From positions 1 through 40,058 of the IMG/VR virus record IMGVR_UViG_3300049445_000518: DNA of 40,058 nucleotides. One strand, given 5' to 3'. Below, piece after piece: positions 16,091 to 34,600 of the stretch (positions are counted from its first letter, which is position 1; the number at the start of each line of letters is the position of its first letter). Source of the stretch: a virus. The notes beneath the pieces were generated by a model, which was given only the letters and a program-made list of their open reading frames with translations, had not been told where the DNA came from and did no database searches. Made by a program: the position numbers and the translations under genes.

Positions 16091-16188
16091 TGGATACGCC
16101 CGTGTGGCGGCCAAAGCTCGGGGTCTACATCGCGTGCGCGCTGTCGCTGGCGTGCATGGTCATGTTCCTGTGGGTGGTGCTGCGCTGA
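16090..16188 (+). CDS. 32-residue membrane peptide
   Basis: The ATG lies in a TGATG overlap with the preceding stop, and the TGA overlaps the ATG of the methyltransferase in the same way. After a short polar start (MDTPVWRPK) the whole chain is one membrane helix (LGVYIACALSLACMVMFLWVVL). The double translational coupling supports a real gene. An inner-membrane peptide among DNA-metabolism genes could act in superinfection exclusion, which is a guess. Confidence 0.55.
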   Translation: MDTPVWRPKLGVYIACALSLACMVMFLWVVLR

Positions 16189-17033
16189 TGCTCGTGCTGA
16201 GCCTGTTTCCTGGCATCGGACTGCTTGATCGCGCCTTTGAGGAGGAGGGCTTCACCGTCGTACGTGGGCCTGACGTGCTGTGGGGCGGCGACATCCGTCG
16301 CTTCCATCCGCCGTCGGGTGTCTTCGACGGCGTCATCGGTGGGCCTCCGTGCCAGATGTTCAGCCGTCTGTCGATCATGGTGCGCCACAACGGCTACGAG
16401 CCGAAGTTCGGCAACCTGATCCCGGAGTTCGAGCGCTGCATTGGTGAAGCCGAGCCGAGGTGGTTCTTGATGGAGAACGTGCCGGCGGCGCCCGAGCCCG
16501 TCGTCGAGCGCTACGCAGTTGTCCACCAGGTCATCAACAACCGGTGGTTCATTGACGAGGGAGTCCTGGGCGCCGAGCAGCATCGTCAGCGACGCATTTC
16601 GTTCGGCACCACTGACGGCCGAGGATTGCCGTGGGACGTGGCGCTGTTCGAGCACCAGACCATCGCTACTGGTGTCACCAGTAGCGATGGCGGCGGTGTG
16701 ATGCGGGGGCGTCACGCCGTGCTCGGAGACAACCGACAGGTACCGAATCGGTACCTGTCCAACGGCGAGGAAAAGCGCTCGTTCGCGGTGACGGCGAGAC
16801 ACGCTGGCCGGCCACCCTGGGTGGCCGGCGCTGTCAGCGCCGGCCACGGCGGCGAGAACTCCAAGCAGTACGTGTACGGGCTGGAGGACGCGTGTGAGCT
16901 CCAGGGCTTGCCGCGCGACTTCACCGAGCACATGCCGTTCCGCAAGGACGCCAAGCTCAAGGCTGTCGCCAACGGTGTGCCACTGCCGATGGGCCGCGCC
17001 ATTGCTCGAGCCGTCAGAAGGGCGATGGCATGA
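16188..17033 (+). CDS. C5-cytosine DNA methyltransferase
   Basis: 281 residues from ATG 16188. Motif I is LFPGIGLLD (6-14), motif IV GGPPCQMFS with catalytic Cys55, motif VI ENV (96-98) and motif VIII QRR (134-136). The C-terminal motifs are ELQGLPRDF and VANGVPLPMGRAIARAV. The target-recognition region between motifs VIII and IX (about 140-225) is short and its DNA contains four perfect palindromes (16660-16847). No cognate nuclease is adjacent, so it is an orphan protective or regulatory methylase. It overlaps both neighbours by 1-4 bases. Confidence 0.9.
   Translation: MLVLSLFPGIGLLDRAFEEEGFTVVRGPDVLWGGDIRRFHPPSGVFDGVIGGPPCQMFSRLSIMVRHNGYEPKFGNLIPEFERCIGEAEPRWFLMENVPAAPEPVVERYAVVHQVINNRWFIDEGVLGAEQHRQRRISFGTTDGRGLPWDVALFEHQTIATGVTSSDGGGVMRGRHAVLGDNRQVPNRYLSNGEEKRSFAVTARHAGRPPWVAGAVSAGHGGENSKQYVYGLEDACELQGLPRDFTEHMPFRKDAKLKAVANGVPLPMGRAIARAVRRAMA
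16660..16690. repeat. Perfect 31-bp odd palindrome (P1) in methyltransferase gene
   Basis: The left arm CCATCGCTACTGGTG (16660-16674) and its exact reverse complement (16676-16690) flank a single T at 16675. All 15 pairs are perfect. It lies in codons about 158-168 of the C5-methyltransferase. Confidence 0.95.
16735..16759. repeat. Perfect 25-bp odd palindrome (P2)
   Basis: The arms GACAGGTACCGA (16735-16746) and TCGGTACCTGTC (16748-16759) flank a single A at 16747. All 12 pairs match. It has no sequence similarity to P1, so it is not a repeated copy. Confidence 0.95.
16807..16829. repeat. Perfect 23-bp odd palindrome (P3)
   Basis: The arms GCCGGCCACCC (16807-16817) and GGGTGGCCGGC (16819-16829) flank a single T at 16818. 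The centre reads CCTGG, a Dcm-type CCWGG site. Its right arm is shared with P4. Confidence 0.95.
16821..16847. repeat. Perfect 27-bp odd palindrome (P4)
   Basis: The arms GTGGCCGGCGCTG (16821-16833) and CAGCGCCGGCCAC (16835-16847) flank a single T at 16834. It overlaps P3 by nine bases, so GTGGCCGGC can pair either leftward or rightward. Confidence 0.95.
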
Positions 17034-17416
17034 GGACACGCCAACCAGCGCTCGTGGTCCACGGCCTGAGTTTCCCCGCGGCGCGCGTGCCGATGGCCAT
17101 CAGGCGCACCCGCGAAAACCCCGAGGAGCACTTTTTACAGAAAGTAGTGAGCTTTGCCCGCCTGTACGGCTGGGACTACCACCACGAGCACGACTCGCGG
17201 CGCTCGACGCCCGGTTGGCCCGACCTGGAATTGGTGCGAGGGCAGCGACACATCCGCGCGGAGCTCAAGGTGCATGAAAGCGACCGCGAGCTCAAGGGCG
17301 AGCAGCGACGCATCAACGAAGTGTTGCGCCAGGTGCCTGGCCTCGAGGTGTACGTCTGGACGCCGCGCGACCTGGACTCTGGCCTGATTACGCACATCCT
17401 GGCGCGGAGGACGTGA
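17030..17416 (+). CDS. VRR-NUC family nuclease
   Basis: 128 residues. ENPEEHFLQKVVSFARLYGWDYHHEH (about 29-54), then RRSTPGWPDLELVRG with Asp65, then RAELKVHESD with the E-x-K pair at 78-80, give the PD-(D/E)xK core of VRR-NUC enzymes. These stand-alone proteins act on branched or flap DNA. Its place near the RecT/Bet gene suggests a role in recombination-dependent replication or end processing. It starts in an ATGA overlap with the methyltransferase stop. Confidence 0.85.
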   Translation: MRTRQPALVVHGLSFPAARVPMAIRRTRENPEEHFLQKVVSFARLYGWDYHHEHDSRRSTPGWPDLELVRGQRHIRAELKVHESDRELKGEQRRINEVLRQVPGLEVYVWTPRDLDSGLITHILARRT

Positions 17417-19356: not shown

Positions 19357-20126
19357 TGCGCGTGTTGAGCCTCGGTGCCGGCGTCCAATCATCCACGCTG
19401 CTGCTGATGGCCTGTGAGGGCCAGGAGCGTATCGACGCGGCCATCTTCGCCGACACGGGCTGGGAGCCGTGGTGGGTGTATGAGCACCTGGGGCACCTGG
19501 AGGATGTGGCGAAAGCCGCTGGCATCCCCGTCTATCGGGTGAGTGCCGGCGACCTGCGAGCCGACGCCCTCGCCAACAAGACCGCCTCGTGGATGCCGCT
19601 GTATTCGGTCGGCCCAGATGGGGTCGAAAAGCTCAAACGACAATGCACGCGCAACTACAAAATCCGCCCAATTCGGCGGAAGGCGCGCGAGTTGAGCGGC
19701 GGCAAGCCCATTCAGCAACTCGTCGGCATCAGCCTCGACGAGTACGAACGCATCCGCGACTCGGACGTGAAGTACATCACCAACGTCTACCCGCTCATTG
19801 AGCAGCGCATGACGCGCGCCGATTGCGTCGCCTGGCTGCAGGCGCGTGAGTACCCGGTGCCGCGGAAGTCATCGTGCATCGCGTGTCCGCTACGCACGGC
19901 GGCTGAGTGGCGAGACATCCAGGCGGATAAGACATCCTGGGCTGACGCCGTGGACTTCGACGAGCGGATCAGGCGGGTGCGGGACCGCACCCGCCTGCAA
20001 GAAGTCTTTGTTCACCGCGAAGGCATCCCGCTCGCAGACGTAGACCTGCGCACCGAGCAGGACCGCGGCCAACTCGAGATGGACTTCGACGGGTGCGGTG
20101 TGCTGTGCGCCGGGGACGTGGCCTGA
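19356..20126 (+). CDS. PP-loop ATPase, PAPS-reductase-like
   Basis: 256 residues from ATG 19356 in a TGATG overlap. The PP-loop is LSLGAGVQSSTLLLMA (4-19), followed by AAIFADTGWEP (28-38). Cys97 (RQCTRNYKIRPIRR) and the pair Cys174/Cys177 (KSSCIACPLR) may bind a metal or carry sulfur, and two more Cys lie at the C-terminus. The family adenylates a substrate, as in PAPS reductase, QueC and DndC. Next to DpdA-like and methylase genes, a role in making or elaborating a modified base is plausible but unproven. Sulfur metabolism is the alternative. Confidence 0.8.
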
Positions 20127-28256: not shown

Positions 28257-30101
28257 ATGCCGCTGAACCGACCCAATCCAGCGTATCCGCGACCCAGCCC
28301 GTACCCGTATCTGGATCAATCCGGCGTCCCCACGAGTAATCCTGGGACAGCCGACACCACAGCCGCGCCAGCACCAGCACCAGCACCCGTAACCAACGTC
28401 GACATCGCGCCCGCCGGCAGCGCCGCTGCTTCGACTCCCGCGGCACCCGCTCCAGCGACCACGGCAACAACGACTGGCCCGGCCGCGGGGCCAGTGGGCC
28501 CCAGCGGGTACAGCGTCTCGCAGATCATCGCGGCATCGGACGACGAGCTGCGCAGCGCGAATAGCACGGTCAATGACCTGTGGGGTGAGCTCCAGAAGCA
28601 GCAGTCGACGGTCACCGATCTGCAGCAGCGGGTTTCGGGTGGCGACATCACCCAGCAAGCCACGCTCAACACGGCGACCAACGACCTGGCCGCGAAGTAC
28701 CAGGCGTACAGCCAGGCGCTCCAGCGGGTCGAGACCGCGAATGCGGGCCGGGCCAAGACGCTCAACGACGCAATCCACAACGGCACTGTCGATCCCTCGC
28801 AAGTCGAGGCCGCTAAGGCCACCGCGGATAAGGCCATAGCCGACGGCGGCCTTGCCAATACACAGGCCAAAGTCCTGCTCGACGGTGCAGATACCCAGAA
28901 GGCACTCGTTGCCGCTCAGGCAGCAGCGAGTGCGCAGCAGGGCTTGTTGGCCAAGGCGCAGGCCGACGCCGTCAATGCCAAGACGCCGGCTGAGAAAGCG
29001 CAACTCGAGGCTCAAGCCGCCGCGCTCAGCGCGCAGGCCAAGCAGACTCTCGAGCTGCTGCCAGGCCTGAAAGACAAGCAGGCGGCCGACACCAATCTCA
29101 CCATCGCGCAGACGGGTCTGACCGACGCAAACTCGGATTTGACCAGGGCAAATACGGCATCGGTCAATGCGGATGCCGCGCTCAAGCAGGCGCAACTTGC
29201 TGCAGGCTTGCCGGCCGCCCAGGTCGCAGCGACACAGGGCCAGGGCGCGCAGTCCCAGGCAGCAGCAGCAGCGTCGCAAGCCCAGATCGAGCAGGGGAAA
29301 CAGGGCCCGCTGTACGGCCTGCAGGACCAGCTCAAGATCGTGCAGGGCATCGATGCCATCCGACAGCAGATCTTCGGTCCAGGTGGCTCGGGCGACCCGG
29401 CGCACGCCAACGACCTGCTCAAGCAGTTCATGGAAGGCATCCCGGCCACACTCGCGGGCACCACGCCGTACGCGGCCAACGTCGCCGCGGCGAACGCCGG
29501 GCTGACCGCCTTCGGCACGCAGGCGTCGCTGGCCAACGCGGCGCAGGCCGCGGCTGCCTCGAGGGCCAACGCATACACCGGCTTCGGCAGCAACGCATTG
29601 AGCTCGCTGCTCGGCGTGATGAAGGACGCTCCGGCGGGCTCGCAATTGCTCGGCACGGCGTTCAACGACGTGATGAACCAGATGTCGGCGCGGACCGCGC
29701 AGGGCCAGTACGCCCCGCCGACGCAACCGACCGCGCCGCAGTTGCCGGCGTTGCTCCAGAAGCTCGCGCCTGGTCCGTCCATGCCCTCAGGGCCACCACT
29801 GCCAGGCCCCGCGGCAGCGCCCGTCATCCCGCAACAACCGCAGCAACCGCAGACCAGCGCGCCCATCACCATCAACGTGGGGGGTGGTCAGCCTCAGGGT
29901 GTGAGCCAGCAGACGACGCCAGGGTTCAACATGGGTGCCATGCCAGGTGCAGGGCCGCAGGGCCAGCAGAGCTCGCAGTTGCCCAGCATGCTGCAGAACT
30001 ACGCACCGCCAACAACTGACTTCGTCCACCAGTTGTGGGGTAACGAACTCGGCTCGGGCGCGGTCCGTTCACCGTACGCGGCGATGGGACAGGGAGGCTA
30101 G
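28257..30101 (+). CDS. Giant Ala/Gln-rich coiled-coil virion protein
   Basis: 614 residues. A Pro/Ala-rich N-terminus (about 1-80) leads to a long helical, coiled-coil-like stretch (about 95-330) full of Ala, Gln and Asp (LWGELQKQQSTVTDLQQRVSGG and similar). A mixed domain (340-480) and a Pro/Gln-rich tail follow. Extended Ala/Gln helices are typical of podovirus ejection proteins or tape-measure-like proteins. The next gene starts directly at its TAG. Confidence 0.7.
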   Translation: MPLNRPNPAYPRPSPYPYLDQSGVPTSNPGTADTTAAPAPAPAPVTNVDIAPAGSAAASTPAAPAPATTATTTGPAAGPVGPSGYSVSQIIAASDDELRSANSTVNDLWGELQKQQSTVTDLQQRVSGGDITQQATLNTATNDLAAKYQAYSQALQRVETANAGRAKTLNDAIHNGTVDPSQVEAAKATADKAIADGGLANTQAKVLLDGADTQKALVAAQAAASAQQGLLAKAQADAVNAKTPAEKAQLEAQAAALSAQAKQTLELLPGLKDKQAADTNLTIAQTGLTDANSDLTRANTASVNADAALKQAQLAAGLPAAQVAATQGQGAQSQAAAAASQAQIEQGKQGPLYGLQDQLKIVQGIDAIRQQIFGPGGSGDPAHANDLLKQFMEGIPATLAGTTPYAANVAAANAGLTAFGTQASLANAAQAAAASRANAYTGFGSNALSSLLGVMKDAPAGSQLLGTAFNDVMNQMSARTAQGQYAPPTQPTAPQLPALLQKLAPGPSMPSGPPLPGPAAAPVIPQQPQQPQTSAPITINVGGGQPQGVSQQTTPGFNMGAMPGAGPQGQQSSQLPSMLQNYAPPTTDFVHQLWGNELGSGAVRSPYAAMGQGG

Positions 30102-31625: not shown

Positions 31626-34600
31626 GTGGCTGGCTCGGGCATCTGGCTCGACGACGCGACGTTCCTGCAGACGCAGGGCCAGATCTGGGCGCAGCAGCAG
31701 ACCCAGAACGTGCACGCCGGCGTCTCGTGGGCGCAGCAGGCCATGCAGGACGCGCTCAAGCCGGTCCAGGACTCGATGGCCAGGCTCCAGCAGATGGTGC
31801 CCCAGGTGCCAACCACGCCCGCGGCACCGGTAGCTCCGCCACCCACGCCCGTAGCGCCACCCGTCGAGCCTCCGCCATCCATGCCGGCGCCCGCACCGCC
31901 GGTGCCGATTGGTGGGACACCCGTGGCGACGCCGACGCCGGCACCAGGCGACCTGACTGGTGGTATCGCGCCAGCACCGACGCCGACGCTGCCGGCCGCG
32001 GTTCCGCCGCCGCCGCCACCCGCCCCGAGCATGGCCGACGTGGGTCAGAACTGGGCCCAGCAGCAAATTCAGAACCTGCTCAACCCGTCCGCGCCCTCGA
32101 GCACGGCAACACCGGCAGCGACGCCGCAGCCCATCCCTGGTTTACCCCCGACCACGACCCCGCCCTCGCCTGGCTCCGCTTCCCTCCCGTTGCCTTCTCA
32201 GGCGCAGGGTGGGGTTCCGCCGGCGACGCCCGCGACCACACCGGGCGCGCCGGCGGGCCCGCGTGACATGCCCAACGTCCAGGTCGACGCGAGCTCGCCC
32301 GAGGCCTTCGTCCGCTCGGTCACACCGGCTGCCCAGTACATCCAGGACAAGACCGGCATTCCCGCCGCGGCGATGATCGGCATGGCCGCCAACGAGACCG
32401 GCTACGGCAAGGCCGCGCCGGGGAACAACCTGTTCGGCATCAAAGGCAGCGGCCCCGCGGGATCGACGACCTCGGGCACCTGGGAGGACTACGGCAACGG
32501 GCCCGTGCAGATCACCGACCAGTTTCGCCGCTACGACAACGCCACCCAGAGTTTTTCCGACTTCGTCGATTTTCTCAGGCAGAACCCGCGCTACCAGAAC
32601 GTCATGAGTTTGGTCGACCAGGGCAAGGCCGACGTCGGTACCTTCGTGCAGGGGCTGAAGGACGCCGGCTATATGACCGACCCGAACTACGTAGGCAAGA
32701 TCCAGAACATCGTCAACCAGTGGCAGCCGACTATCGACCAGGCGCGCCAGACGGTGCAGGGTGCCATCAGCACCGGCCAGACCGCGGTCAACACGGCCGT
32801 CCAGGGTGTGCAGTCGGCGGTTGCCGCGCGTGCATCGCAGTTCGGCCTGGGGCTGAGCTCGGGCGATGCGATGGCCTTCTGCGGACCTACCGCGGCGATC
32901 GCCTTCGCTCAGACGTACGGTCGCAATCCAACGGTCGCCGAGGCCAAGCAGCTCGCGCAGCAGGTCGGCTGGGATCCGAACCAGGGCATGGCCGGCGTTG
33001 GCTCCGAGGTTTCCCTACTGAAAACCATGGGAGTCGACGCGCACGCGACGTCCGGCGTCGATTGGTCGCAGGTCGGCCGCGACGCTTCGGGCGGTAACCC
33101 CGTCATCATCGACACGCCAGGCCACTATTACTACGTCGACGGCTACAACGCCGACACCGGCCAGTTGCACGTCGGCACCAGCGGTACCGATCTGAAGGGT
33201 GGCTCCGAGTGGATGACGCCCGATCAGATCAACGCCATGCCGCAGTCGCACGGCTCGGCTCGAGCGGCGATCTTCGCCGACCATCCACTGGCGCAGCAGG
33301 ACGGTCTCGCCCAATCCAGCAGCCGTAGCCTCACGATGGGCACCAATCAGCCGGCGACACCCGACCTCGGCCAGGCCGCTGGTCAGGTACTCGGCAATGT
33401 GCCGCTGCCATTCGTGGGCATGAGCGCCAACGACCTCACGTCGCTACTCGGTCAGAACGCGCAGCAGTTGCAGACCGGCCGCGACATCGTCGGCGGCCTG
33501 CTCTCACCCGATTCGAGCGTGTCCAGGCCGCTGCGGGCGAAGGCGGACAGCATCCTGCAAGCCGTCCAGGACGTCGGCTCGCAGGCGACTCAGGCCGGTC
33601 AGGACCTGCTCCAGCAAGGACAACAGGCCCTTCAGCAGGCACCTCAGACGATCGGCGACATCCTGCAGCAGAATGCACTCACAAGCCAGGGCATCCCGAA
33701 CATCGGCGGCAACCTGCTCGAGGGCGCGGGCCAACTCGGTCAGAACCTCAGCGTGCAGAACATGGCCTCGAACCCGCTCATGCCGAGCAATCTCCTGAGC
33801 GGGGCCGAGCAAGGGTTGGGTCAGAACGTCGTCGGACCCGCGATCAACGCACTCCTGCCAGGTGGCGCGCTCGAGCAGGGACGTCAGGCGCTGGGTGGCG
33901 CCATCGCCGGATCCATGCCGGACATGCCTGTACTGGGTGGTGTGACCCAGGCGGCGGGCGGCATGCTCGCGGCGCCGAGCGTCATCGAGCAGATGCAGAC
34001 CATGCAGGAGTTGTCGCAGAAGTACGCCCCCGGCGGACTCTTCCCTGATCCCAGCACGATGACCCCGGAGGACGCCGAGCGCTGGAACAGCGCGACGATG
34101 GCCATCGCGGGCACTGTTGGACCGCCCGAGACACACGGGCGTGCCGGAGTTCCGCCGCCGCCGCCGGGCTCGGCCGCGCGCATGGACTGGCTGCTCGACC
34201 GTGGCAAGTTTGCACCGCCCGAAACGCAGACGCCCGGACTCTTGAGCACGATCGGTCGATCTATCCAGGCTGGTCGTATTGGGGCGCTCGCAGGCGGCAT
34301 TCCCACCGTGGCGCACATCGCCTTCAATGCCCCCGTCCAGATCGGGCTGAAGCTGCTCTCCGATGTGCCGGCGTCGGTGCTCAGTGGCCATGCGGAAGCC
34401 GTGGGGCCAGAGCTCTACGGCGCAATGCAGGGCTTGCGCTCGTGGGCCCTGAACGCATCCCAGACATTGCGGCAGCCCGGTCCGTTGGCCGAGAGCATGG
34501 GTGGCGGGACCGGCGCCCAGGCGCTCGAGACAGGACTCACCGGGTTGGTCCGCGCGCACCCCGTGCTCCAGGATGCCGCGCGGCAACTGGCGACCAGCGC

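Follow-up and report, generated by a model that had tools for sequence, protein, structure and literature searches.

The analysed window comprises 40,058 nucleotides of IMG/VR record IMGVR_UViG_3300049445_000518, a tailed, integrase-bearing phage whose record includes genes for terminase, a serine integrase, DpdA and RecT. A cytosine-C5 DNA methyltransferase of 281 amino acids is encoded on the plus strand at 16188..17033 (PF00145, E=1.6e-16; DNA methyltransferase in PHROG). The protein contains the motifs FPGIG, PPCQ, ENVP, QxRxR, LQGLP and NGVP, with the catalytic PPC motif, ENV, QxRxR and the C-terminal NG(V)P placing it in PF00145. Its nearest solved structure is M.HaeIII, and the profile match extends over the full length. 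Alignment of homologues located the target-recognition region at 16600..16880 (plus strand), where three V-T type modules, VTSSDGGG, VTARHAGR and VSAGHGG, were recognized. In an AlphaFold2 model this region is poorly ordered, with pLDDT below 50 at residues 169-184, 198-209 and 211-225.

Two further observations concern the surroundings of this region. After PPCQ, about 16 codons in a row (16360-16430) are identical at the DNA level to those of the relatives L029, L030 and L032, the remaining gene being about 75% identical. A gene overlapping the methyltransferase stop codon (17030-17416) appears by eye to encode a VRR-NUC nuclease-like protein (GWPDL..AELK); it gave no Pfam or NCBIfam match, and the methyltransferase is not its neighbour in most relatives or carriers.

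Perfect palindromes in the target-recognition region

A preliminary description of this DNA had reported four perfect palindromes within 188 bp of the methyltransferase gene, and their positions, arm lengths, central bases (T, A, T, T) and the overlap of P3 and P4 were reproduced exactly. All lie in frame between motif VIII (QHRQRR) and motif IX (LQGLP), as described, and none carries a strand assignment. P1 (16660..16690, 31 bp, CCATCGCTACTGGTG T CACCAGTAGCGATGG) has 15-bp arms and encodes IATGVTSSDG; its central T is the middle base of the Val codon GTC. P2 (16735..16759, GACAGGTACCGA A TCGGTACCTGTC) has 12-bp arms. P3 (16807..16829, GCCGGCCACCC T GGGTGGCCGGC) has 11-bp arms and is identical in L029. 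P4 (16821..16847, GTGGCCGGCGCTG T CAGCGCCGGCCAC) has 13-bp arms, encodes VAGAVSAGH and is likewise centred on the middle base of a GTC Val codon. P3 and P4 have GTGGCCGGC in common; otherwise the four sequences are mutually unrelated and possess no common core. The CCTGG at the P3 centre, previously pointed out as a Dcm-type site, is absent from the other palindromes and does not characterize the group. Most of P2-P4 falls in the low-confidence part of the structure model, which is consistent with a segment tolerant of change.

Composition alone predicts 0.002 palindromes with arms of at least 11 bp in the methyltransferase gene. When synonymous codons were resampled for the same protein, a longest arm of at least 11 was reached in 5 of 2000 trials and one of 15 in none of 2000. 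Because even one arm of this length was so rarely obtained, chance and protein constraint are excluded as an explanation of the palindromes, and the earlier judgement that they lie far beyond chance stands. A search of the whole 40 kb for inverted repeats with arms of at least 10 bp and a centre of 0-3 nt, the check proposed at the outset, returned only one further palindrome, at 19970-19997. It has 13-bp arms and a 2-nt centre and lies near DpdA in a gene that looks PAPS-reductase-like by eye and gave no Pfam match. Between P1 and P2, a fifth, imperfect inverted repeat (16694-16719; 11 pairs, two of them G-T, and a loop of 4) was seen in the RNA fold.

Occurrence among related methyltransferases

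About 100 homologous viral loci, plus bacterial ones, were gathered. Within the close clade, the recognition region is built from modules (VTSSDGGG / VTARHAGR / VTAGHGG) joined by variable linkers. Nine of ten close relatives have long perfect inverted repeats in it, which frequently coincide in residue position while differing in sequence. At the P4 residues, for example, the palindrome reads GTGGCCGGCGCTG.. in the window, GTGCCCAGCAGTG.. in L018 and TGCCCAGCCGGT.. in L035, so that L018/L039 and L035 carry palindromes other than P4 at this place. Against simulations of the same protein, the recognition regions of the window and of nine of ten distinct clade relatives beat all 60 runs, as did those of L064, L066 and L091/L094, which are more distantly related. 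The exception within the clade was L038, from which the P1 module is missing. Some 65 other homologues showed no clear excess, except marginally L041 and L069. Palindromes with paired changes recur in independent metagenomes.

The confinement of the palindromes to the methyltransferase recognition region is reflected in their density. With arms of at least 10 bp, 26 palindromes were counted in 17.5 kb of methyltransferase genes and 16 in 713 kb elsewhere in the same phages (23 phage records), or 1.49 versus 0.022 per kb, a difference of about 70-fold; of the 26, three are a single sequence that recurs in three contigs, and two, of 10-11 bp, are N-terminal. An N-terminal palindrome with 10-11-bp arms, AGCCTTCGAGCTCGAAGGCT, was observed in L029 and L032 at methyltransferase residues ~14-20, in the conserved AFELEGF; in the window, E replaces L at its centre and the perfect palindrome is absent.

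Individual palindromes are missing from some close relatives, P1 from L031 and P4 from L033 and L034. L031 encodes the peptide ATGVTSSDG at P1 without DNA symmetry. Such a homologue, with the same residues and no symmetry, had been named beforehand as a finding that would speak for chance or protein-level constraint; it exists, yet what follows from it is that the symmetry is not dictated by the protein; it is no evidence that the symmetry arose by chance. Perfect repeats outnumber imperfect ones (19 versus 7 at 12 pairs or more). The features of the coding palindromes known from Nematomorpha, namely perfect translated arms, gain and loss across the clade and no excess of imperfect repeats, are therefore all present here.

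Palindromes are not a general property of C5 methyltransferases, since no clear excess was seen in about 65 members of the family other than the carriers, and 80 loci from genome contigs contained just three long palindromes in or near a C5-methyltransferase gene. Nor could they be regarded as a general property of N4/N6 methyltransferases, where 32 homologues yielded 4 repeats, with 0.6 expected, and half of the 4 came from the query gene. In a related phage, an N4/N6 DNA methyltransferase (L207:9445-10686) has two perfect palindromes in a variable insert, with 14- and 13-bp arms (G012 29421-29449 and 29461-29489). An MT-A70-like methyltransferase (L192:13447-13995) has a palindrome with 11-bp arms just past its DPPW motif (G002 31995-32019), in a phage that also has P1/P4-type palindromes. 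These cases are few and represent a lead rather than a result.

Paired arm changes, inverted centres and a mosaic gene

The two arms of a palindrome change together. Covariation was detected at four pairs (six cells) of P1 and five pairs (11 cells) of P4, and neither score was reached in any of 500 shuffles. In L034, two inner pairs of P1 differ from the window, both sides having changed. At the P2 place L029 and L030 each have a 13-bp palindrome; four paired transitions separate the two and alter amino acids on both sides (ALGD/RPVP versus VLSD/RSTP). Nearly all arm pairs are Watson-Crick; G-U was found in two of about 200 cells, at the outermost pair only. Paired multi-base changes between relatives are the arm homogenization expected of template switching.

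Silent sites in the arms are conserved as well. Arm codons were synonymous-identical at 16/16 to 19/19 positions between the window and L029, L030 and L032 (0.59-0.64 in the rest of the gene), and at 19/20 between L018 and L039 (0.39 outside the arms). This is what tied arms would predict, in that silent sites are no longer free because a copied third-position change becomes a first-position change in the other arm; it could alternatively result from selection for structure or from recent exchange between phages.

A further class of differences concerns the centres. L018 and L039/L022, which are 79% identical overall, have common 16-bp arms enclosing 5-bp spacers that are reverse complements of each other (TACTG versus CAGTA), and BLAST aligned this region perfectly over 38 bp, with one of the two sequences inverted. 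At a second palindrome of the same pair, 11-bp arms enclose 3-bp spacers GGA and TCC. Inversion of a spacer between identical arms, a signature of template switching, was thus found in this pair. In the column of the P1-centre Val, a conserved residue followed by Thr or Ser, two of 51 homologues have D or H instead, the sole charged residues among them, and both are palindromic there: the codon is GAC (Asp) in L034 and CAC (His) in L030. At the P4 centre, GAC was found in L029 and CAC in L031. GAC is the reverse complement of the Val codon GTC, and CAC that of the Val codon GTG. By point mutation, Val to His takes at least two changes within the codon. His (CAC) at the two centres requires a GTG ancestor, and GTG itself was not observed at those places. 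Comparison of phage with phage suggests that these centres have been inverted.

One relative, L018, is a mosaic. Its recognition region resembles that of L039 as far as the right edge of its own P4, and the sequence beyond resembles L029/L030/L032, which the C-terminal tree supports (99/97). The left edge of P4 is joined to differing linkers in L029, L030, L031 and L032, and breakpoints therefore cluster at palindrome edges. Together, the spacer inversions, the arm covariation and the mosaic relative support a reading as cruciform or hairpin rearrangement, in line with the earlier proposal that the palindromes are linked to diversification or recombination of the recognition region.

Origin of the palindromes and their possible role

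We consider it probable that these coding palindromes are made and kept perfect by a hairpin process at the DNA level, most likely template switching during replication. On reaching an inverted repeat, the nascent strand would fold back, or jump to the sister template, copy one arm onto the other and then return. Such an event could make an imperfect inverted repeat perfect, transfer an arm mutation to the opposite arm, or leave the unpaired centre inverted. Because arms and centres are themselves codons of the recognition region, one event could rewrite several residues with the frame intact, including Val (GTC/GTG) to Asp (GAC) or His (CAC). In E. coli, quasipalindromes are established sites of template switching, and trapped cytosine methylase-DNA complexes stimulate the process (PMC6357072); that such complexes might act on the palindromes described here is speculation. 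The simplest account would be a mutational process surviving where protein constraint is weak, the palindromes occupying an insert of the recognition domain that is itself variable. Template switching is not gene-specific, and the near-absence of palindromes from the remaining phage genome is only partly explained.

Among the alternatives, selection of the hairpins as structures, either in mRNA (translation pausing, stability, enzyme binding) or as cruciforms, with arms covarying to preserve the fold, appears unlikely. The window segment does fold far better as RNA than its shuffles (z = -7.7), and the paired covariation at P1 and P4 and the strong conservation of the arms agree with such selection. 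However, selection for a fold would tolerate single mismatches, whereas the pairs seen are almost all Watson-Crick, and perfect arms outnumber imperfect ones. Reverse-complement centres would not be predicted, P1 and P4 are each absent from some close relatives, and no Rfam match was found. The last result also led us to reject an operator or RNA element, and the operator sites suggested initially find no support, the four sequences being unrelated to each other, placed mid-gene and replaced by other palindromes in relatives.

Inversion or exchange of segments by a phage recombinase or strand-annealing protein (site-specific or RecT-type), without template switching, seems less probable again. 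It would accommodate the spacer inversions and the breakpoint of L018 at the P4 edge, and the window phage encodes both a serine integrase and RecT. Yet P1-P4 have no core in common, and inversion alone would not hold arms identical. Neither a recombinase shared by the carriers nor a shared crossover sequence, both expected of site-specific inversion, was found in records that may be incomplete: serine and tyrosine recombinases alternate among the carriers (mostly fragments), and RecT occurs in just two of ten phage records, likewise fragments, and was rejected as the agent. The earlier idea of a recombination or cruciform site thus survives in part, in the spacer inversions, the arm covariation and the L018 breakpoint at the right edge of P4. 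The downstream nuclease-like gene was rejected as the agent in view of its missing Pfam match and its position away from the methyltransferase gene in most carriers.

In-frame insertion of small mobile palindromic elements (Rickettsia RPE or MITE-like) is very improbable. Length differences between homologues do fall in the recognition region, but the P1 and P4 sequences are confined to the methyltransferase family among 2.9 million viral contigs, bar one P1-like match, at about chance level, in an unrelated 205-kb contig, where the sequence appears to be non-coding. The same element was not found at several unrelated loci, as would be expected of RPE or MITE elements, and same-place palindromes differ in sequence between relatives, with arms that encode largely conserved residues; the palindromic insertions proposed in the preliminary description find no counterpart in these results. 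A scan with the GGGVMRG DNA pattern revealed no new carriers. The possibility of chance, protein-level constraint or assembly artefact is negligible: Gly/Ala/Thr codons (GGC/GCC/ACC) favour short inverted repeats in the motif, but the codon simulations, the asymmetric L031 and the recurrence of paired changes in independent metagenomes all argue against it.

We know of no phage methyltransferase for which a comparable process has been described. A close likeness is to Saccharomyces genes, where template switching has produced arm homogenization and spacer inversion, including tcc to gga (PMC8604942). Both systems display in-frame homogenization and inversion, arms of ~10-16 bp, centres of 2-5 bp and parallel flips; the yeast events are spread over 39 genes, whereas here at most four palindromes occupy one recognition region and the same residues are hit repeatedly through the phage lineage. 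Template switching has also been invoked for palindromes in the mitochondrial genes of Nematomorpha (PMC6649704); there too both arms are perfect and coding, palindromes are gained and lost between species, and the long ones lie in codon phases 1 and 2. The nematomorph palindromes reach 284 bp and affect many genes, whereas those described here are short, lie in one gene and have documented inverted centres. RNA hairpins originating from and maintained by template switching (PMC8794818) similarly acquire multi-base compensatory changes in one copying event, in RNA genes rather than in a protein-coding recognition region.

Two other systems resemble the present one in outcome. As in the shuffling of pneumococcal Type I HsdS (PMC4948785), DNA inversion changes the recognition part of a methyltransferase, but there it takes place among hsdS genes, whereas here hairpin centres of 1-5 bp are involved and no recombinase was identified. 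As in diversity-generating retroelements (PMC3240598), a phage recognition part is diversified locally; here, however, neither a reverse transcriptase (in ten phage records, fragments that may be incomplete) nor a template repeat was found, and a retroelement was rejected.

The palindromes might, more tentatively, act as a selected, recombinase-free switch through which the lineage, facing host restriction, goes on sampling different methylation specificities or states of activity, a possibility to which we give well below even weight. Hairpin template switching would then flip centre codons (Val to Asp/His, Ser-Ser to Thr-Gly, Ser to Gly), and linkers would be swapped in DNA-recognition loops. 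In this small natural locus, template switching appears to have written and rewritten the codons of a recognition region, and its traces, inverted centres and copied arms, can be read from the sequence. If the flips alter methylation, they would provide variation in specificity without a recombinase, a reverse transcriptase or repeats elsewhere.
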